From Armatimonadota bacterium (lineage in GTDB: Bacteria > Armatimonadota > Hebobacteria > CAIYQO01): 64,000 bases of DNA. Below the pieces are notes generated by a model. That model saw only the letters and a program-made list of their open reading frames with translations, was not told the DNA's origin and did no database searches. The stretch covers positions 62,001 to 126,000 of the forward strand of contig JAKPKV010000114.1 of assembly GCA_029553475.1 (NCBI GenBank). Direction: 5' to 3'. A program made the translations under genes and the position numbers. Positions 18,588 through 64,000 of this stretch are shown piece after piece (position 1 is the stretch's first letter; each line of letters begins with the position of its first letter).

Positions 18588-18617
18588 TTCGACGCCGGCG
18601 CGTCGCCCGTGTATAAT
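18588..18617 (+). promoter_or_regulatory. promoter of mnmG, TTCGAC-18-TATAAT
   Basis: A perfect TATAAT (18612-18617) has TTCGAC 18 bases upstream. The transcript would begin at or next to the GTG at 18624, so mnmG probably has a leaderless mRNA. Confidence 0.6.
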
Positions 18618-18623
18618 GGGCGC

Positions 18624-20483
18624 GTGAACACCTGGGATGTGATCGTGGTGGGCGGTGGACACGCGGGGTGCGAGGCGGCGTCCGCCGCGGCGCGCCGCGG
18701 CGCGCGCACGCTGCTGGTGGCCCTCCGCCGCGACCGCGTGGCGCACCTGCCCTGCAACTGCAGCATCGGCGGCCCGGCGAAAGCCCACCTGGTGCGCGAA
18801 ATCGCCGCGTTGGGCGGCCTCATGCCGCGTATCGCCGACGCCGCCATGACCCACGCGCGCCTGCTGAATACCAGCAAAGGCCCCGCCGTGCGCGCCATCC
18901 GCGCGCAGGTGGACAAGGCGCTGTACCCCGCGCTGATGCGGGCGCGCCTCGCCGATGAGCCGAACCTGGCGATGCTGGAGGGCGAGGCGGCGGCGGTGCT
19001 GGTGGAAGACGGCGCGGCGGCCGGCATCGCGATGGCCGATGGCCGGCGTTTTCCCGCCCGCGCGGTGATCCTCGCCACCGGCACCTTTCTCAACGCGCGC
19101 ACCTTCGTGGGCGACGTGACGGAGGATGCGGGCCGCCACGGGGAGCCGCCGGCGCGCCGGCTCTCCGCGTCCCTCGCCGCCCTCGGCCTGCGGCTGGGGC
19201 GGCTGAAAACCGGCACCACTCCGCGCCTCGACGCCGCGACCATTGATTACGCGCGCTGCGAGCGGCAGGAGCCGTCGCCCACGCCCCTCGCCTTCCAGTT
19301 CGCCTGGCAGCGGCCCGCGCTCCCCGATCGCCCGCTGCTGCCGTGCCACCTCACCTATACCACCGCGGAGACGCACGCCATCATCCGCGCGAATCTCTCC
19401 CGTTCGGCGCTCTACGGCGGGCTCATCAGCGGGCGCGGCCCGCGCTACTGCCCGTCCATCGAGGATAAAATCGTCCGTTTCGCCGACCGGGAGCGCCACC
19501 AGGTCTTCCTCGAGCGCGAGGGGTGGGACTCCGACCTCATCTATCCGTTGGGCATCTCCACCAGCCTGCCCGCCGACGCGCAGGACGCCTTCGTGCGCAG
19601 CATCCCCGGCCTGGAGCGCGCCGTCATTCTCCGCCCCGGCTACGCGGTGGAATACGACTACCTCCCTCCCGACCAGCTGACGGCCGGCCTGGAGACGAAA
19701 GCCGTGCGCGGCCTCTTCTGCGCCGGACAGCTCAACGGCACCTCCGGCTACGAGGAAGCCGCCGGGCAGGGCCTGCTCGCCGGCATCAACGCCGTGCAGT
19801 ACCTGCACGGGGACGCGCCCGTGGTCCTCGGTCGCGACCAGGCCTACCTGGGCGTGCTGGTGGATGATTTGGTGACGCGCGGCCTCACCGAGCCCTACCG
19901 CATGCTCACCTCGCGCGCCGAGCATCGCCTGCTGCTGCGCCAGGACAACGCCGACCTGCGGCTGGCCGACCTGGGCGCGGCGCTCGGCCTGCTGCCGGCG
20001 GGCGATTACGCGCGTTTCCGCGCCAAGCGGGCCGCCATTGACGCGGAGCTGGACCGCCTCGCCTCCACCCCGCCCGGCGAGAGCGGGGTGGACGGCGCCG
20101 GTCTCGCCTCCGCCGCCGACTGGCTGCGCCGGCCGGCATCCACGTATGCGCGGCTCCGCGAAACCGATCCCGTCGCCGCCACGGTCCCCGAGGAGGTGGC
20201 GGAACAGGTGGAAACCGCGGTAAAATACGCGGGCTACATCTGCCGCCAGCAGCGGCAGGTGGCGCAGCAGCGTCGGCTGGAGGCGCACCCGCTGCCCGAC
20301 GATTTCCCCTACCAACAGGTACGGGGGCTGTCCCGCGAGGCCATTGACCACCTCACGCAGGTGCGCCCGCGCACCGTCGGGCAGGCGGCGCGCATCCCCG
20401 GCGTCACCCCGGCGGACATCTCGCTGCTGCTCGTGTGGCTCTCCGCGAAGAAACGGGCCGCTGTTTCACGTGAAACACGATGA
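18624..20483 (+). CDS. mnmG: tRNA uridine-5-carboxymethylaminomethyl modification enzyme MnmG
   Basis: A protein of about 619 residues, the usual length. The FAD-binding N-terminus is VIVVGGGHAGCEAASAAARR. The family motif is present as CNCSIGGPAKAHLVREI, then GTFLNARTFVGD, GLRLGRLKTGTTPRLD, RGPRYCPSIEDKIVRF and GLFCAGQLNGTSGYEEAAGQ. The C-terminal tRNA-binding domain shows YAGYICRQQRQV. With MnmE it modifies wobble uridine in tRNA; mnmE is not in the window. A GTG at 18609 is in frame but lies within the -10 region, so GTG 18624 is chosen. The gene ends in a perfect parS site and overlaps rsmG by four bases. Confidence 0.96.
   Translation: MNTWDVIVVGGGHAGCEAASAAARRGARTLLVALRRDRVAHLPCNCSIGGPAKAHLVREIAALGGLMPRIADAAMTHARLLNTSKGPAVRAIRAQVDKALYPALMRARLADEPNLAMLEGEAAAVLVEDGAAAGIAMADGRRFPARAVILATGTFLNARTFVGDVTEDAGRHGEPPARRLSASLAALGLRLGRLKTGTTPRLDAATIDYARCERQEPSPTPLAFQFAWQRPALPDRPLLPCHLTYTTAETHAIIRANLSRSALYGGLISGRGPRYCPSIEDKIVRFADRERHQVFLEREGWDSDLIYPLGISTSLPADAQDAFVRSIPGLERAVILRPGYAVEYDYLPPDQLTAGLETKAVRGLFCAGQLNGTSGYEEAAGQGLLAGINAVQYLHGDAPVVLGRDQAYLGVLVDDLVTRGLTEPYRMLTSRAEHRLLLRQDNADLRLADLGAALGLLPAGDYARFRAKRAAIDAELDRLASTPPGESGVDGAGLASAADWLRRPASTYARLRETDPVAATVPEEVAEQVETAVKYAGYICRQQRQVAQQRRLEAHPLPDDFPYQQVRGLSREAIDHLTQVRPRTVGQAARIPGVTPADISLLLVWLSAKKRAAVSRETR
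20462..20477. promoter_or_regulatory. parS: parS centromere site, perfect consensus
   Basis: TGTTTCACGTGAAACA matches the 16-bp chromosomal parS consensus at every position. It lies in the last codons of mnmG, just before rsmG and about 0.9 kb before parA. ParB would bind here and load as a CTP-dependent clamp. This usually marks the origin-proximal part of a chromosome. Confidence 0.95.
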
Positions 20484-21229
20484 CACCTGACATGACCGCG
20501 CTCCACGCGGGCGCCGCGCAACTGGGATTGACGATCACGCCGGAGCAGGAGGCGCGCTTCGCGCGGCTCCTCGCGCTGCTGCTGGCGCGCAACCGGCAGG
20601 TGAACCTCACCGCTATCACCGACCCCGGCGAGGTGCTGGTCAAACACGTGCTCGACTCCCTCACCGTCGAGCAGGTGTGGACGCCCACCCTCGGCGAGCG
20701 CGCGATGGATATCGGCGCCGGCGCGGGATTCCCGGGGCTGCCGCTGGCCATCCGCCACCCGGACGCGCACATCACCCTCAACGACAGCGTGCGCAAGAAG
20801 GTGGCGTTCATCGAAGAAGCCATCGCCGCGCTCGGGCTCGACAATGCGGACGCCGTCTGGGCGCGCGCGGAAGAACTCGGGCAGCGCCCGGCGTATCGCG
20901 GCCGGTTCGACGTCGCCCTCGCCCGCGCGGTGGCGCACCTCGGCGCGCTGGCGGAATACGCCCTGCCGCTCTTGCGCGACGGCGGCCGGCTCATCGCCAT
21001 GAAAGGCCCGAACAGCCTCCCGGAGATCGCGGACAGCGCCCGTGCGCTGGAGGCGATCGGCGGCGTGGTGGCGGAGACGCGCCGGCTGGCGCTGCCGAAC
21101 GGCGACGCGCGCGTGCTCATCGTCGTGCGCAAGGTCCGCCCCACCCCTGCGCGCTTCCCTCGCGACCCCGGCGCGGCGAAAAAGCACCCGCTCTTCCTTG
21201 ACACGACCCGGGCGGCGCGTTTAGAATGA
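20480..21229 (+). CDS. rsmG: 16S rRNA (guanine527-N7)-methyltransferase RsmG
   Basis: A protein of 249 residues. The SAM-binding motif is AMDIGAGAGFPGLPLAIRHP, preceded by NLTAITDPGEVLVKHVLDSL and followed by DVALARAVAHLGALAEYALP and RLIAMKGPNSLPEI, all typical of RsmG/GidB. It methylates G527 of 16S rRNA. The tail of about 20 residues after RVLIVVRKVRP (rich in P, A and R) is longer than in many homologues. The start overlaps the mnmG stop (ATGA). The parAB promoter lies within its last codons. Confidence 0.95.
   Translation: MTPDMTALHAGAAQLGLTITPEQEARFARLLALLLARNRQVNLTAITDPGEVLVKHVLDSLTVEQVWTPTLGERAMDIGAGAGFPGLPLAIRHPDAHITLNDSVRKKVAFIEEAIAALGLDNADAVWARAEELGQRPAYRGRFDVALARAVAHLGALAEYALPLLRDGGRLIAMKGPNSLPEIADSARALEAIGGVVAETRRLALPNGDARVLIVVRKVRPTPARFPRDPGAAKKHPLFLDTTRAARLE
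21198..21227 (+). promoter_or_regulatory. parAB promoter TTGACA-18-TAGAAT
   Basis: A perfect TTGACA (21198-21203) and TAGAAT (21222-21227) with an 18-base spacer lie in the last codons of rsmG. The leader to the parA ATG at 21350 is about 115 bases and has a GC-rich inverted repeat near 21283-21308. This suggests parAB can be expressed apart from mnmG-rsmG. Confidence 0.65.
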
Positions 21230-21349
21230 TTTTCGCGTTGAGAGAGGGAAACGGATTTTCCGGAATCGTTGTCACGTCATCCCCGGGCAGGCGCGCGTCC
21301 CCGCGGGATGAGCCGCCACCGTGACAGCGCATCGTCACCCTGCACTGCC

Positions 21350-22111
21350 ATGACAAAAACCCTGGCCATCGTCAATCAAAAGGGCGGCGTGGGCAAAACC
21401 ACCACCGCCGTCAACCTCGCCACCGGGCTGGCGCGCGCGGGCCATCGCACGCTGCTGGTGGACCTCGACCCGCAAGGGAACGCCACCACCGGCGCGGGCG
21501 TGGAGAAGTCGCGCCTGGAGGCCACCGTCTACGATCTGCTCCTCGGCGACCGCGCCTGGTCCGCGGTGACGGTGGCCAGCGCGGTGGAGGGGCTGGACGT
21601 CATCCCCGCCACCCTGGAGCTGGCGGGCGCCGTGGTGGAGCTGGCGACCCTGCCGGAGCGTGAGGTGCGCCTGCGCCACGGGCTGCGGGGCGCCGACGCG
21701 CGATACCGCTTCATCATCATTGATACCCCGCCGTCGCTGGGGCTGCTGCCGGTGAACACGCTGGCCGCCGCCGACGCCGTGCTGGTGCCGATGCAGTGCG
21801 AGTTCTACGCGCTGGAAGGGCTGGCGCAGTTGGAATACACCCTGCGGCTGGTGAAGCGCGGCCTGAACCCCGCGCTGGAGATCCTTGGCATCCTCCTCAC
21901 CATGGTGGATACGCGCATGAAGCTCTGCCGCGACGTGAGCGCCGCCGTGCGCCGGCAGTACGGCGCCCGCGTCTTCAAAACGGCCATTCCGCGCACCATC
22001 CGCCTGTCGGAAGCGCCCAGCTATGGGGAGACGATCTTCACCTACGACCCGCGCGGCAAGGGCGCCCGCGCCTATCTCACCCTCACCCAGGAGGTGATGG
22101 ACCGATGTTGA
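21350..22111 (+). CDS. parA: chromosome partitioning ATPase ParA (Soj)
   Basis: A protein of 253 residues. The deviant Walker A motif is VNQKGGVGKTTTAVNLATGL at the N-terminus, with DLDPQGNATTG, then IIIDTPPSLGLLPVNTLAAAD and LGILLTMVDTRMKLCRDV. It lacks an N-terminal helix-turn-helix, as in short chromosomal ParA/Soj. It works with ParB to segregate origins. The frame is open for 27 codons upstream, but the ATG at 21350 gives the conserved N-terminus MTKTLAIVNQ. Its stop lies inside parB with a seven-base overlap. Confidence 0.96.
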   Translation: MTKTLAIVNQKGGVGKTTTAVNLATGLARAGHRTLLVDLDPQGNATTGAGVEKSRLEATVYDLLLGDRAWSAVTVASAVEGLDVIPATLELAGAVVELATLPEREVRLRHGLRGADARYRFIIIDTPPSLGLLPVNTLAAADAVLVPMQCEFYALEGLAQLEYTLRLVKRGLNPALEILGILLTMVDTRMKLCRDVSAAVRRQYGARVFKTAIPRTIRLSEAPSYGETIFTYDPRGKGARAYLTLTQEVMDRC

Positions 22112-22956
22112 AACGCCGCAGCGGCCTGGGCGCGCTCATCCCCGGCGCGGAGCTGCCTACCGGCAGCGGGCCGGAGTTCGTCCCCATCAGCGCGATTGCC
22201 GTCAATCCCTATCAGCCGCGGCGCAGCTTCGCCCCCGAGGCGTTGGAGGAGCTGGCCGCATCCATCCGCCAGCACGGCATCCTGCAGCCGCTCACCGTGC
22301 GCGTGCGCGAGGGCGGCTACGAGCTCATCGCCGGCGAGCGCCGCCTGCAGGCCGCGCGCCGCGCCGGGCTGGCCGACGTGCCGGTGATGGTGCGCGACTG
22401 CGACGACCGCGAGATGCTGGAGCTGGCGCTGGTGGAGAATCTGCAGCGGGAAGACCTGAATCCGCTGGAGGCCGCCCGCTCCTATCAACAGCTCCTCGAC
22501 GATTTCGGCCTGACGCAGGCGGACGTGGCCGCGCGGGTGGGCAAGAGCCGCCCGGCGGTGGCGAACACCCTGCGCCTGCTGGCGCTGCCGGCGCCCATCC
22601 AGGGCGCGCTGGAAGCGGGGACGATCAGCGAGGGCCACGCCCGCGCGCTGCTCGCCGCCCCCACGCCGGAGCGGCAGCTCGCCCTCTTCCAGGAGACGGT
22701 GGCGCGCGGCCTCTCGGTGCGCGCGGTGGAGGCGCTCGCCGCCGCGGCCCCGCCGGCGCAGTCGGCCCCGCGCAAAAAACCCCCTTCCGCCGGCCTGGAC
22801 GCCAACCTGCTGGCGGCGCAGGAGGCGCTGCAGCGCGCGCTGGGGGTGAAAGTGCGCTTCCGCCCCGGCGCCACCGGGGAGAAGGGGGTCATCGAGATCG
22901 ACTACTACACCGCCGACGACCTGGAGCGCATCTACGAGACCGTCACCCGCGCGTAG
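22105..22956 (+). CDS. parB: chromosome partitioning protein ParB (Spo0J)
   Basis: A protein of 283 residues. The N-terminal CTP-binding region has NPYQPRRSFAPEALEELAASI, GERR at residues 77-80 and ENLQREDLNPLEAARSYQQL. The central helix-turn-helix is LTQADVAARVGKSRPAVANT, followed by GHARALL. The C-terminus (YYTADDLERIYETV) is the dimerisation domain. It binds parS, and two copies flank this gene cluster. A basic N-terminus (MLKRRSGLGALIPG) is the usual ParA-stimulating peptide. The start overlaps parA by seven bases. Confidence 0.96.
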   Translation: MLKRRSGLGALIPGAELPTGSGPEFVPISAIAVNPYQPRRSFAPEALEELAASIRQHGILQPLTVRVREGGYELIAGERRLQAARRAGLADVPVMVRDCDDREMLELALVENLQREDLNPLEAARSYQQLLDDFGLTQADVAARVGKSRPAVANTLRLLALPAPIQGALEAGTISEGHARALLAAPTPERQLALFQETVARGLSVRAVEALAAAAPPAQSAPRKKPPSAGLDANLLAAQEALQRALGVKVRFRPGATGEKGVIEIDYYTADDLERIYETVTRA

Positions 22957-22972
22957 GGTTTCACGTGAAACA
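22957..22972. promoter_or_regulatory. parS: second parS site, 15 of 16 consensus bases
   Basis: GGTTTCACGTGAAACA begins directly after the parB stop codon. Only the first base differs from the parS consensus. With the site at 20462 it brackets rsmG-parA-parB. A pair this close suits nucleation of a ParB partition complex. Confidence 0.9.
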
Positions 22973-58508: not shown

Positions 58509-59603
58509 TCAGGGCGTGGCGAATATCTCCAGCTCGCGCAGGCCGTACATGTGCTGGGTGCTGTTGTGGGCGCCGCTGGAGATGACCTGATAGAAGATGG
58601 CGACATCGCGGTAGGGGGTGGCGTCGGAGACCGGCGTCTCGAAGAACTTCAGGTGGCCGTCACTGGCGGCGGGCGGGTCTTTGGGCACGTTGCCGGGGGC
58701 GATGGTGCGCCAGGCTTGCTGGCCGGGGTAGATGCGCCCGCGCAGCTCGACGCGGCAGTTGCCGTAGTGCTTCACGCCACCCTCGTTGGGGAAGACCTTG
58801 AAGGATTTGACCACCATGGGCTGGTTTAGCTGCTCGTAGCCGATATAGATCTGCCCGAGCGCGTTGGGGTTGCCGCCCGGCACCTCCATGCGCATCACCG
58901 CGCTGCTGCTGGTGACGATGCCGTCATACATCAGCGCCAGGCCACCGGTGCCCCACCAGACATTGATGTTGTCCCAGTAGCGGAAGGCGTTGGCGTCGGC
59001 GGGGGTGAGGCGGAAGGGGGTGCCGGCGCCGGTGGCGGGCTTCATGTAGATGCCCTCGCGCCCGAGGACCTCGATCGGCTGCCCCTTGATGACGAGCGCG
59101 CGCGAGGAGCCGTCCATCATGCCCAGCGTCACCGTCTCCTGGTGGCGGGCGGCGATGCTCTCGTTCAGGGTGTTCTCGCGGATGGTGTAGTCACCGTCCA
59201 TTTTCGTCTTGGTCAGGTCGGCCACGGCCAGGCAGTTCACCGGGCTGCTGATATAGGCCATCGGCTTCCCCAGCACCTCGCCGTTGAAGCCGTATTCGGG
59301 CTTGCCGTTGTCACCCTTGCCCGTCAGCGAGGGGCAATCGTAGATGGAGCCGCCGTTATACTCGGCCAGCGCGTGCGCCCACGGCTTGCCGGTGTCCTGG
59401 GGAAATTGCTCCTGATTATCCTGCACGAACATCTGCATGGCCACCACTATCTGCCGCACGTTGCTGAGGCAGGCTGTGGCGCGCGCCTTTTCGCGGGCGC
59501 GGGCGAAGACGGGGAAAAGGATCGCCGCCAGGATCGCGATAATAGCGATGACGACGAGCAACTCGATGAGGGTGAAGCCCCTCGGTGCGTTATTTCCGCG
59601 CAT
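58509..59603 (-). CDS. prepilin-type protein, H-X9-DG-like, with long C-terminal domain
   Basis: A protein of 364 residues. The prepilin N-terminus is [20 protein letters not shown] with Glu at +5, followed by [20 protein letters not shown], the usual helix. Then [20 protein letters not shown] and [20 protein letters not shown], a variant of the H-X9-DG motif, appear. The last 180 residues look like a beta-sandwich ([52 protein letters not shown]), probably discoidin-like. AAAGGAG lies seven bases before the ATG at 59603. It starts 35 bases after the stop of the next prepilin and is probably co-transcribed. Confidence 0.9.
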
Positions 59604-59638
59604 AGCATGCTCCTTTTGCTGGCGAAGGTACATCATGG

Positions 59639-61063
59639 CTAGTTCACCCCATACTTGCGGGCCAGGTAGCCCATCACCCCCAGCATCTCGCCGCTGGAAA
59701 GGCAACGGTCCTTGTAGACGATGATCTCGGCCACATCGAAAGCGGTCGAACGCGCGTGTTGGTTGGCGTCGCGGGTGGAGCCGATTACCCCGAAGCGGAA
59801 GTTGTTCGGGTTGGGATTCATCGCGACTTCCACCGCGCTGTTCATGCGCGCGAAGGCGGGCAGATTGGCCTCGCGATGGGTGGAGGAAAAGCCGACGATC
59901 TGCCATTTGTCGCGCAGCGCGGCGTAGGCGCCGTAGGTAGTGATGACGTTCTGGTCGGTATTGGTGCCGTCGCGGGTGATGCGCACCTGCAGCCCGTCGG
60001 AGGTGCCCCAGAAGAGGCCGTTGCGATACGCGTGGTTCAGTACACCCAGCATGCAGCCGCTGCCGATGCTGGTGGTGACGGGCCGCACCGCCATCGCCAC
60101 GCTCTGCACCACCTCATCCGCGCCGTAGGCGGTGCCGCCCGCGTTCGGGAACATCAGCGCCCCACCGTTGTTGCCGCTGGCGGTGAAGCGCAGCGCGGGC
60201 TTGCCGTTGCTGGAGTCGGCCAGGTAAGTGGGGGGCGTGCGATAGCGCGTGGTGCCGTCATCCGAGTTGCCTAGTTGGGCGAAATGGCGCACGGTGCGCG
60301 TCGTCATCGGCGTCGGGCTGACGTAGCGCGCCTCGGTGAGGAACGCGGCCGGCGGCGGGCTGACCCATTGATCGATCTGATCGCCGTTCGCCTTGGCCGG
60401 CGTGCCGTCGCTTTTCAGCAACGCGCCCGGCGCGTCGGCGGCAAACCAGAAGGTGATGTCCTCGGGGATGCGCAGGCTGGAGCCGGCGGTTTTGCGCAGC
60501 TCGGCATGACCGTCAACGAAGGCGACGGCGAAGCTGCCGTTATGGCGAAAGGCATAGTCGCTCGGCATCGCCTTGCCGGTGGGGCCGCGCCAGGGCATCA
60601 GGCGCGAAATAAGGTTGGGCCGCCAGCCGGCGGGGCGGTCGGCGTCGGCGACCAATCCCCACCCCTGCGCGTTCCAGTCCGCCACCAGCGCCTCCTCGGT
60701 GGGGGCGAAGACATCGCCCAGCGCGGTGGGCGGGTTGCCCAGCGGGTCGGAATACCCGTAGGTGTTGGTGACGCCCTGGGTGACGTCGCTCGGGCATTTC
60801 ATCACGCCGGCGGGCAGCCCCAGCCCCTCCCACACCGTCTTGGAGGCGGGAAAAGTTTCCCCGTTGTCCTGCACGTTCATCAGGATGGCGGTGGAAATCT
60901 GCCGCACGTTGTTCAGGCAGGAGGTGGCGCGGGCCTTCTCGCGAGCTTTGTTAAAGACCGGAAACAGAATGGCGGCGAGAATGGCGATGATCGCGATCAC
61001 CACCAGCAGTTCGATGAGGGTGAAGCCCGCGCAGCGGGTCCCCCTGCTCCGCAGATGAGACAT
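59639..61063 (-). CDS. prepilin-type protein with C-terminal LamG-like lectin domain
   Basis: A protein of 474 residues. The prepilin motif is [20 protein letters not shown], then [20 protein letters not shown]. An H-X9-DG motif is present as [18 protein letters not shown] near residue 185. The C-terminal 270 residues look like a concanavalin A/LamG fold ([20 protein letters not shown]; final [20 protein letters not shown] and [12 protein letters not shown]). AAAGGAG stands before the ATG at 61063. A pseudopilus or surface fibre carrying a lectin-like domain could bind glycans; this is an inference. A 25-bp operator-like site lies 51-75 bases upstream. Confidence 0.9.
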
Positions 61064-61113
61064 ACCTCTACACTCCTTTCACAAACAAACGTATCATTGC
61101 CAAGGTGAGAGCT

Positions 61114-61278
61114 TTCCGGGAATCACATGTTTTCGGAAGTCAGCGGGCGAAAATGCTGCTGCCCGGCGCTCCTCAGGGAGTGAAAGGGGGAATCTGGGGG
61201 AGGAAAATGCTCACTATGCTTGACAAAATCAGGCCTATGCTGCGTATACTTATTTCCGAAAACATGTGATTTCCGGAA
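61114..61278. promoter_or_regulatory. pair of inverted 25-bp operator-like sites
   Basis: A 25-base sequence at 61114-61138 (TTCCGGGAATCACATGTTTT then CGGAA) occurs inverted at 61254-61278 with a single change. Each site has TTCCG and CGGAA at its ends, as in a repressor half-site pair. The spacing of 140 bases would allow DNA looping. The left site lies just upstream of the prepilin gene; the right site follows the plus-strand promoter at 61220-61250. Confidence 0.65.
61220..61250 (+). promoter_or_regulatory. plus-strand promoter TTGACA-19-TATACT
   Basis: TTGACA (61220-61225) and TATACT (61245-61250) are separated by 19 bases, which is long but usable. No plus-strand gene begins within the next 900 bases, so it may make an untranslated RNA that crosses the candidate origin, or be controlled by the adjacent operator sites. 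Confidence 0.45.
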
Positions 61279-61584
61279 CCGGCGGCAGGGAATTTTTCGC
61301 CAGGCACAGCGGAACAATGCCGCGGTGGCGGGACCCACAGCCCATTGTGACAACATCGTCTGGCGGAAAATATGCCACAAGATGAGCGTTGAACGGTAGG
61401 GTGAACACGCCCTAAAGCGCATTTTCCTTGAAATAGTAGCGTGTGGACGCGACAAAGGGCCGAAACCGGCGGCGGGAGGGGGAGACGCGTCACCGCCTGC
61501 CGGCCCCCTCATCCGGTTCAGCGCACACACCGCGAGGATATGATACGGTATGCCGGAATCGCGGGAGTCCGCGTCGGAGAGTAG

Positions 61585-61793
61585 ATATTATCACCTTCCT
61601 TAATATTTTTCTTGAAATAACGATAAGGATAAAGGGGTGTGGATATGTGGAGACAGGCAACGGCCCCCGTTCGACGCCCGTGTGGATAAGCCCCCGGAAA
61701 AGCGCGGCGGTCGCGGGCCGTTCTCCCCGGAGCGCGCGGCCCCGCGCCGTGTACCCGGCGTTTTCGCAGGTTGTTATCCACGCGTGTGGAAAA
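61585..61793. other. oriC: candidate replication origin (DnaA-box cluster and AT-rich tract)
   Basis: Four DnaA-box-like nonamers lie within 160 bases. They are TGTGGATAT (61638-61646, one mismatch), TGTGGATAA (61681-61689, perfect), TTATCCACG (61774-61782, one mismatch) and TGTGGAAAA (61785-61793, perfect to TTWTNCACA). A 50-base AT-rich stretch (61585-61634) stands beside them and could be the unwinding element. A weaker box lies at 61442. No dnaA gene is in the window. The parABS locus about 40 kb away supports an origin-proximal position. Confidence 0.6.
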
Positions 61794-61806
61794 ATCCGCA
61801 GCCCCG

Positions 61807-62052
61807 TCAATCCACCAGCGACGCGAAGAAATCCGCGTTGCGCGTCACCGACCGCCGCCATTCCCCGGGCACGCGGGCCAGGTGATAGATGGCGTCCACC
61901 GGGCAGACGCTCGCACAGGCAGCGCAGTCAATGCATTCCATCGGGTCAATGACGTATTGATCGCGAGCGTCGTAAATGCAGTTCGTCGGGCACACCAGCG
62001 TGCACTCGCCGCACTTCTCGTCGCCGCAGGGTTCACAGATGACGTAGGCCAT
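61807..62052 (-). CDS. 7Fe-type (3Fe-4S / 4Fe-4S) ferredoxin
   Basis: A protein of 81 residues. The pattern MAYVICEPCGDEKCGECTLV followed by CPTNCIYDARDQYVIDPMEC and CIDCAACASVCPVDAI closely follows the Thermus-type ferredoxin I know (VICEPCIG...CVEVCPVECI...CIDCGACVPACP). It would carry low-potential electrons in the cytosol. A nearly perfect AGGAGGTG lies before the ATG at 62052. No redox enzyme is adjacent. It ends next to the DnaA-box cluster. Confidence 0.93.
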   Translation of the reverse strand: MAYVICEPCGDEKCGECTLVCPTNCIYDARDQYVIDPMECIDCAACASVCPVDAIYHLARVPGEWRRSVTRNADFFASLVD

Positions 62053-62200
62053 AATCGGCACCTCCTCGCGGGCTCTTCCCGTATGGTAGCAAGCGTTTCC
62101 CGGCGCGCGATGTCCAACTCTCGCGCCAATGCGAGAGGAAAGCGGCGGCGCGTGGCGTAAACAGGGAGAGCAGAGCACCCCGATGCCGGAAGGATCACGC

Positions 62201-64000
62201 ATGTACGACCGCCGCGAAAACGAGCACCAGGAACTCTTTCACCTGCGTATTGACCCCGCGCGGCCCGTGCCCATCCACATCCCCAGCCCGCTGGGACGCC
62301 TGGGCTATTTCTTCTTCGCGCGCGTGCCGGCCGACGCGGCCGACCGGCTGGCGGGCGTCGGCCTGCGGCTGGACATCGGCGGCCTGCGCGAGGACCACCT
62401 GACCGTCGCGCCGGGCGCAGGCGTGGAAGGCGCCGCGGTGCTGCCGGGCGCGGATGGCCGGGCCTGGCGCTGCCTGGGCAAGGGCCTGGTGAGCCGCGGC
62501 GACGGCACGGTGATCCTGACGGATTGGCCGGCGGACGTCACCAGCGCCGACCTGCTCATCACCACCTGGCCGCGTTTCGTGGAGAGCGGCATGGCCGACG
62601 CCTGGATCGCCGCGCAGGCGGACCCCCGCTGGGCGCCCTCCGGCGTGCCGCTCGGCGGCATCGGCGGCGGGCGCGTGGACCTCTGCCGCGACGGCCGCTT
62701 CCGCAACTTCAGCATGAATAATAACCAGGATGCCCCGGTGGAAGACCCCGACGGCCTGCCGGGCGCCTACCTGGCGGTCACCTGCGATGGCATCACCCGC
62801 GACCTCGCCACCCGGCCCATTGTGCCCGGCCACCAGGCGTGCGAACTCCTGGACTTCACCCCGCGCTTCCCGCAGGCCGTCCTCGCCGCCGAGCCGTTCC
62901 CCGGCATCGCCGTGCGCGTCCTCGCCAGCGGGCCGATCTGCCCGCATGACGTGCGCCGGTCAAGCATCCCCGGTTTTCTGGTACGCTGGGAGGTGACGAA
63001 TACCGGCGCCGACGCGCAAACGGTGACGGTGCGCATGGGCTGGCCGAATCTCATCGGCGTAGGCGGCGGCGTGGCGGAAGCGGAGAGCGGCATCGGCTAC
63101 GGCGACGGGTTTTATCACCACTGGGATGACCCGACGGGCCACGCGGAGACGGTCGAGGGCAGCACGATGATCTTCACCGGCTCCCCGCGATATCCGGCCT
63201 CCGCCGGCGAGCACATGCTGGCGGTGCGGATCGGCGCCGCGACGGCGGGCGACGGGCACGGCGAAGTCCATCGTGAACTGCGGCTGGAACCCGGCGAGAC
63301 CGGCATAGCTACGATGTCACTGGTCGCCGCCATGCCACACTGGATGGACTCGCTCAAGGTAGATCGCGGCCACGCCTGGCAGGACCATTTCAAGAGCGCG
63401 CGCGGCATGACGGCAGAACTGATTCTCGAAGCGGAGGTGATTCTCGCGGAGGCCGGCGCGCTCTCCGCGCTGCTCGCGGAGAGCACGCTCCCTGAGTGGC
63501 TGCAACGCCGGCTGTGCAACTGCGCCTACCCGCTGGTGACCAACAGCGTCTACTACCGTGACGGCCGCTTCAGCGTGAACGAAGGGCCCACAGAGATGGC
63601 GGGCTGCTACGGCACCATTGATCAGCGGCTGGCCGCGCACCCGGCGACGCAGCTCCTCTTCCCGCACTTGAACGGCACCGAGCTGACGCTCTTCGCCGAG
63701 AATCAGGCGGCCGACGGCGGCATCAATCACGATCTGGGCGGCGGGCACCTGGAGCGCGGCGTGCACCCGCAGGACTGGCCGGACCTGACCTGCTCTTTCA
63801 TCATCCAGACCGCGCGCCATGCCTGGACCACCGGCGACGCCGCCTTCGACGACGCCATGTGGCCGCGCGCGCGCCAAGCGCTGCTGAAACATGCCGCCTG
63901 GGCGGAAGCGGGCGCGGGCGTGGCGCAGGTGGGCGACGGCCTGGGCACCAGCTACGACGGGTATCACTACGAGGGCACCACCGGCTACCTGGCCACCCTG
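62201..64000 (+). CDS. GH116 (GBA2-like) beta-glucosidase family protein, 3' end cut by window
   Basis: The frame is open for 600 codons to the window edge. The N-domain has the GH116 pattern SGVPLGGIGGGRVDLCRDGR (about residues 145-165), with FRNFSMNNNQDAPVED. The start of the catalytic domain shows NEGPTEMAGCYGTIDQRLAA and LFPHLNGTELTLFAENQ, then DGGINHDLGGGHLERG and WPDLTCSFIIQTARHAW. The catalytic acid in this family lies further downstream and is lost. No signal peptide is seen. ATG 62201 is chosen because GAAGGA precedes it; an in-frame ATG at 62183 would add six residues. Family assignment is by motif. Confidence 0.85.
   Translation, partial: MYDRRENEHQELFHLRIDPARPVPIHIPSPLGRLGYFFFARVPADAADRLAGVGLRLDIGGLREDHLTVAPGAGVEGAAVLPGADGRAWRCLGKGLVSRGDGTVILTDWPADVTSADLLITTWPRFVESGMADAWIAAQADPRWAPSGVPLGGIGGGRVDLCRDGRFRNFSMNNNQDAPVEDPDGLPGAYLAVTCDGITRDLATRPIVPGHQACELLDFTPRFPQAVLAAEPFPGIAVRVLASGPICPHDVRRSSIPGFLVRWEVTNTGADAQTVTVRMGWPNLIGVGGGVAEAESGIGYGDGFYHHWDDPTGHAETVEGSTMIFTGSPRYPASAGEHMLAVRIGAATAGDGHGEVHRELRLEPGETGIATMSLVAAMPHWMDSLKVDRGHAWQDHFKSARGMTAELILEAEVILAEAGALSALLAESTLPEWLQRRLCNCAYPLVTNSVYYRDGRFSVNEGPTEMAGCYGTIDQRLAAHPATQLLFPHLNGTELTLFAENQAADGGINHDLGGGHLERGVHPQDWPDLTCSFIIQTARHAWTTGDAAFDDAMWPRARQALLKHAAWAEAGAGVAQVGDGLGTSYDGYHYEGTTGYLATL

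Follow-up and report, generated by a model that had tools for sequence, protein, structure and literature searches.

Locus and genomic setting

The window analysed here is a stretch of 64,000 bases (G000:C186:62001-126000) on a 329-kb contig, one of 194 that make up a genome of 5.27 Mb. Coordinates past base 64000 are given as window-equivalent, i.e. as contig position minus 62000. Judged by DnaA, the closest loci belong to Armatimonadota MAGs as well: L017 (JAKIYB010000030.1, 95% identity), from a congener, and L018 (JAGUZN010000055.1, 73%), from the same family and another genus. The next DnaA relatives include the MAG named Candidatus Hebobacterum abditum, and the class of the uncultured source bacterium is near Candidatus Hebobacteria. 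The following genes form the setting of the locus.

18609–22972 (+): mnmG-rsmG-parA-parB block with both parS sites, an origin-region segregation module 40 kb off
58509–61063: two tandem DUF1559-type prepilin-like genes, between alaS and the origin candidate
61807–62109 (−): 4Fe-4S ferredoxin-like gene (Pfam Fer4), first of the intervening segment; the longest ORF reading starts at 62202
62204–64000, on to 64885 (+): GH116-type glycoside hydrolase gene (Pfam DUF608, Glyco_hydr_116N), second of the intervening segment

The initial annotation had described a gene-free region with prepilin, ferredoxin and GH116 genes as flanks. The gap 61064–61806 indeed contains no convincing gene, and all three flanking genes are present, with the ferredoxin and GH116 genes recognized by Pfam. 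An Rfam search across the locus returned nothing convincing, and ARAGORN found no tRNA there that could mark an insertion site.

The prepilin-like pair is absent at the corresponding place in both L017, where a YcxB-like gene is the left neighbour instead, and L018; the gap between alaS and the origin candidate seems to accumulate genes. Between the prepilin gene and the origin candidate lies an inverted repeat with 30-base arms (61114–61143 and 61249–61278, 105 bases apart, 90% complementary, core ACATGT), which is possibly a paired operator. A promoter-like site, TTGACA-19-TATACT, adjoins its right arm and is directed toward the AT-rich tract described below. This left flank with the inverted repeat is not common to the congener.

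Two parS sites about 40 kb away had also been reported, and the search confirmed them as the only ones in the genome (20462–20477, perfect; 22957–22972, one mismatch). The position of parAB/parS 40 kb to the left fits an origin region without singling out 61.6 kb. The GC-skew check proposed with the initial annotation cannot decide the matter in this group: skew is weak in the window and over the whole contig, without a switch at 61.6 kb. It is jagged in the complete relatives G012 (60-point sample) and G006 (40 points of a 60-point grid, covering its first two-thirds). GC skew is too weak and jagged to place the origin in this class. The literature search on Armatimonadota origins yielded one paper on point, on the Fimbriimonas genome, which describes a jagged skew and a dnaN far from dnaA (PMC4072686).

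Box cluster and AT-rich tract at 61.6 kb

The gene-free gap contains the following elements.

61582–61636: AT-rich tract, candidate DNA unwinding element (DUE), by AT content, instability and AT-richness in both relatives
61638–61646 (−): DUE-proximal DnaA box ATATCCACA, one mismatch, R1-like, pointing at the AT tract over a 4-base G run; identical in L017
61646–61654 (−): weak DnaA box GTCTCCACA with two mismatches, in tandem with the 61638 box and sharing one base with it; identical in L017
61681–61689 (−): perfect DnaA box TTATCCACA; identical in L017
61774–61782 (+): DnaA box TTATCCACG, one mismatch, left half of head-to-head pair A; identical in L017
61785–61793 (−): DnaA box TTTTCCACA, one mismatch, the right-hand member of pair A, with two bases between the members; TCATCCACA in L017

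Four DnaA-box-like 9-mers are thus found inside 156 bases (61638–61793, cluster 1). The number of four agrees with the earlier description, but the proposed two perfect and two near-perfect boxes do not: only the box at 61681 is perfect, and the other three have one mismatch each. The last two boxes do face each other two bases apart, as had been noted. Among 40 simulated contigs of the same dinucleotide make-up, the maximum was two such boxes per 165 bases compared to the four observed, and the clustering at 61.6 kb significantly exceeds chance. Since single near-boxes are hardly enriched genome-wide (369 versus 324 for the reversed pattern), only their clustering is meaningful. Four near-boxes per 300 bases occur at only two places on the contig, at 123.6 kb, which is cluster 1, and at 126.9 kb. 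Three of the nine perfect TTATCCACA copies in the genome fall in this 3.5-kb locus. When at most three mismatches are allowed, the inward-facing pair TTATCCACANNTGTGGATAA has three sites in the 5.27-Mb genome, namely 61774 (pair A), 64927 (pair B) and 65140 (pair C).

The 50-base AT-rich tract of the initial annotation was recovered at 61582–61635 and holds the most AT-rich 50-mer of the window, with 38 of 50 bases A or T. It is the fourth least stable distinct site on the contig (99.994th percentile of instability), and the aligned tract is AT-rich in L017 and L018 as well. The box at 61638 lies in reverse orientation and faces the tract with four Gs between them. For R1-type DUE-proximal boxes, reverse orientation and a box-to-DUE gap of 8–18 bp are the rule (PMC5043019); the gap of 4 bases found here is below this range. 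The BUS rule combines a DnaA box of at most two mismatches, a spacer of 0–16 and at least three NAN trinucleotides, the DnaA-trios (PMC8287927). With a spacer of 4 and six NAN trinucleotides, ATATCCACA conforms to it, but the rule is loose and the agreement is weak evidence. Under the stricter form [G/A]A[T/A] only two of the six qualify, which makes for a weak DnaA-trio match.

Further to the left, ATTTTCCTTGAAATA at 61421 (within 61419–61458) repeats the core of the AT tract, ATTTTTCTTGAAATA at 61605, and TGTGGA follows here too. The unwinding module may thus have a second, degenerate copy at 61419–61458.

dnaA and the second box cluster

The locus had been presented as an origin without an adjoining dnaA. 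This is mainly an edge artefact, because the window ended short of the gene: the start of dnaA lies 1.4 kb beyond the window end, at 127416 of the contig (window-equivalent 65416). The appearance of an oriC without dnaA can arise from a window edge. The encoded DnaA has 460 amino acids and all three Pfam DnaA domains. Going right from cluster 1, its gene comes third, after those for the ferredoxin and GH116, at 3.6 kb from the last box; the GH116 gene terminates 0.5 kb ahead of dnaA. The features on this side are, in window-equivalent coordinates:

64927–64990: dnaA-side boxes
65080–65159: dnaA promoter, sigma70-like, with pair C directly downstream
65416–66798: dnaA

The gap between the GH116 gene and dnaA holds a second cluster (64927–65159), consisting of TTTTCCACA, TTATCAACA and two copies of the perfect TTATCCACA, four boxes in 222 bases. 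Pair B and the perfect box at 64982 lie upstream of the dnaA promoter. Two box clusters with a candidate DUE in one and two genes between them give the arrangement a bipartite layout. The spacer differs from the usual one, dnaA, in that it consists of the ferredoxin and GH116 genes with dnaA outside.

With its two perfect and two near-perfect boxes next to dnaA, and with a dnaA-adjacent pair that is the part common to other families, cluster 2 might be the only origin, leaving 61.6 kb as an accessory DnaA site with a regulatory or titrating function like datA or DARS. We regard this as distinctly unlikely. The tract in cluster 1 is far up the instability scale, compared to the 99.5th percentile in cluster 2; the R1-like geometry is found in cluster 1; and L018 has an AT-rich tract and both box groups in one gap. 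A stronger box cluster beside dnaA had been named in the initial annotation as an observation that would refute it. To the letter a cluster beside dnaA does exist, of similar strength, but the comparison with L018 derives both clusters from one stretch.

The gene dnaN is located 60 kb further right of dnaA, at about 188 kb of the contig. Genes such as mnmG and parAB are frequent neighbours of origins. This general knowledge, together with a GC skew that gives 61.6 kb no support, would be in line with an origin elsewhere, either at mnmG-rsmG-parAB (18–23 kb) or near dnaN, and with a merely gene-regulatory function of the clusters described here. Such a location appears highly improbable, as no box cluster occurs near mnmG-parAB or dnaN and the two dense places on the contig are those of clusters 1 and 2.

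Conservation in two close relatives

In L017 the gene order is the same: cluster 1, ferredoxin, GH116, cluster 2 and dnaA. The boxes of cluster 1 are found at −3778, −3735, −3642 and −3631 from dnaA in both congeners, base-exact. Since L017 comes from an independent assembly, the shared layout and spacings show that the layout is not an assembly error. The ferredoxin gene at this place is 90% and the GH116 gene 83% identical. Identity between the congeners amounts to 100% for the boxes 61638, 61681, 61774 and 64982 and for the weak tandem box, 95% for pair B and 90% for pair C. The sequence between the boxes (61690–61773) and the AT tract reach 67–68%, and the sequence just past the last box 46%. 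Box 61785 is the exception among the boxes with seven of nine bases.

L018 exhibits a different arrangement, in which a single gap of roughly 1.1 kb directly after alaS leads to dnaA. In this gap, positions −806 to −630 align with cluster 1 (score 29; shuffles: mean 10.8, sd 1.3; z 14.1), and positions −402 to −322 align with the dnaA promoter and pair C (score 27; shuffles: mean 11.3, sd 1.3; z 11.8). Order and orientation of both parts are preserved with no gene between them. A double box resembling the 61638/61646 pair is also present, and an excellent inward pair is located at −554, between the counterpart of cluster 1 and the promoter. The homology is recognisable only via alignment at the syntenic place; a nucleotide search with 61560–61800 in 121 genomes of the phylum recovered the source genome, the congener and, apart from these, no more than 29 matching bases around one box. 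No alignment to L018 was obtained for the ferredoxin–GH116 intergenic gap (z 0.8) or the prepilin side (z 0.2), and the ferredoxin, GH116 and prepilin genes are absent from the alaS–dnaA gap of L018. A short CCACCA match, considered as a ferredoxin remnant in L018, was judged by eye to be a chance hit.

Judged by these alignments, the comparison shows clusters 1 and 2 as apparent derivatives of one stretch that is now parted by two genes. The simplest history would be that both genes entered the alaS–dnaA origin gap in this genus while other genes entered on the alaS side. Only three members of the family carry the locus; the outgroup gene order is uninformative, and what speaks for the direction of change comes from one of the three, L018. 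We infer insertion rather than loss. Conversely, the split state could be ancestral and L018 could have lost both genes, and the occurrence of the unsplit state in only one same-family genome would agree with this. A loss is nevertheless unlikely: close homologues of the two genes are lacking elsewhere in the genome of L018 (G002; best identity 44% for ferredoxin and 37% for GH116) and in the class genomes searched, and L018 would have had to lose both genes by a clean deletion, with the order of the homologous parts left intact.

Proposed model of a split origin

Based on the sequence comparison, we consider it likely that 61582–61793 is the DUE-bearing side of oriC, which the 3.1-kb ferredoxin–GH116 segment parts from the dnaA side, and that the locus works like a bipartite origin. 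As far as part of an oriC is concerned, the initial annotation receives good support from the congener-conserved boxes and the homology to the L018 gap, and its missing dnaA is mostly an effect of the window edge. The oddity is that the DUE side and the dnaA side stand apart. Origin activity of 61582–61793 is what we infer from these features.

The intervening segment lies between pairs A and B. The DUE side is therefore at a distance of 3.6 kb from dnaA, whereas pairs B and C are still located at the dnaA promoter. DnaA-ATP would bind the R1-like box at 61638 and the weak tandem box at 61646. From there a DnaA filament would grow along one strand of the neighbouring AT-rich tract, which would thereby be opened. 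Additional DnaA would be loaded by the boxes at 61681 and 61774/61785, and opening of the tract would be followed by helicase loading. The boxes on the dnaA side would serve to repress dnaA and probably, through looping, as a further source of DnaA, as in the two-part origins of B. subtilis and H. pylori.

In B. subtilis, DNA looping appears to mediate the action of DnaA boxes that lie away from the unwinding module, and varied distances are tolerated, as tested within incC over hundreds of bases (PMC6669920). Origins of the H. pylori type loop over dnaA (PMC5043019). That looping would tolerate a spacer of 3.1 kb is an extrapolation from such systems, and DnaA looping between the two clusters has, in our estimation, about an even chance of taking place. 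A more far-reaching reading can be put forward only tentatively: the halves would have been pulled apart by two metabolic genes and would still act as one unit via DnaA looping over about 3.1 kb, with an unsplit, ancestor-like state in the sister genus.

Alternatively, 61582–61793 could be the whole working origin, displaced and self-sufficient. The boxes before dnaA would then only autoregulate dnaA, and the entry of the two genes would have moved the origin away from the dnaA promoter without splitting a functional unit. Cluster 1 alone does possess an AT tract, an R1-like box, more boxes and an oppositely oriented distal box, and pair C sits just downstream of the dnaA promoter, where a pair is also found in other families, as expected for autoregulation. 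We regard this as rather unlikely, given that pair B and the perfect box at 64982 lie upstream of the promoter and are conserved in the congener, and that the unsplit L018 gap contains an inward pair between cluster 1 and the promoter.

Read as a bipartite origin, the locus is similar to those of B. subtilis and H. pylori in having two box clusters, a DUE in one, the other at the dnaA promoter, and coding DNA between them. The spacer of bipartite origins is usually dnaA, and the whole measures up to about 2 kb (PMC4285127). In contrast, the spacer found here is the 3.1-kb ferredoxin–GH116 segment, with dnaA outside and away from the DUE. The L018 gap shares homologous elements in the same order (AT tract, double box, further boxes, dnaA promoter, pair C), but within a single 1.1-kb gap that lacks the ferredoxin, GH116 and prepilin genes. 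Similar to oriC of E. coli, the DUE-proximal box is R1-like and in reverse, and the origin does not touch dnaA. Whereas oriC and dnaA of E. coli lie far apart and the gene context is a different one, the distance here is 3.6 kb and the separation would be recent within the family.

This recent separation of the two sides by two genes appears to be new, and no literature on a 'split origin' with insertion was found. The reason for the split origins of some bacteria is named as an open question in PMC4285127. The split congeners and their unsplit same-family relative provide a natural before-and-after pair for the distance of the DUE side from the dnaA-side boxes. In addition, the locus offers an origin candidate for a class in which GC skew fails.

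Related arrangements in the phylum

An inward-facing pair 250–650 bases before dnaA is common in the examined Armatimonadota loci, though many are without one. In families near this one, the pair is located directly downstream of the likely dnaA promoter, so its role may partly be dnaA autoregulation. In other families of the class (L019–L023) only the box pair at the dnaA promoter is recognisable, with no counterpart of the DUE side.

Five further loci (L024, L025, L027, L194 and L196) resemble the present one in having a box cluster with a head-to-head pair 1.0–1.35 kb before dnaA and coding sequence in between. Coding DNA as a spacer thus occurs outside this genus as well, but only here was it seen to consist of two unrelated metabolic genes spanning 3.1 kb. 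In the first three of these loci the spacer is one HATPase_c regulator gene with a predicted helix-turn-helix tail (L024:3486-4301, L025:9039-9872, L027:9143-9958), and further boxes follow after dnaA. The product of this spacer gene could sense the cell state and act on dnaA. At L190 (G025:C1:158001-178000), in another relative, an unusually regular array of fifteen perfect TTATCCACA boxes occupies about 350 bases just after dnaA, many of them spaced by 11 bases.
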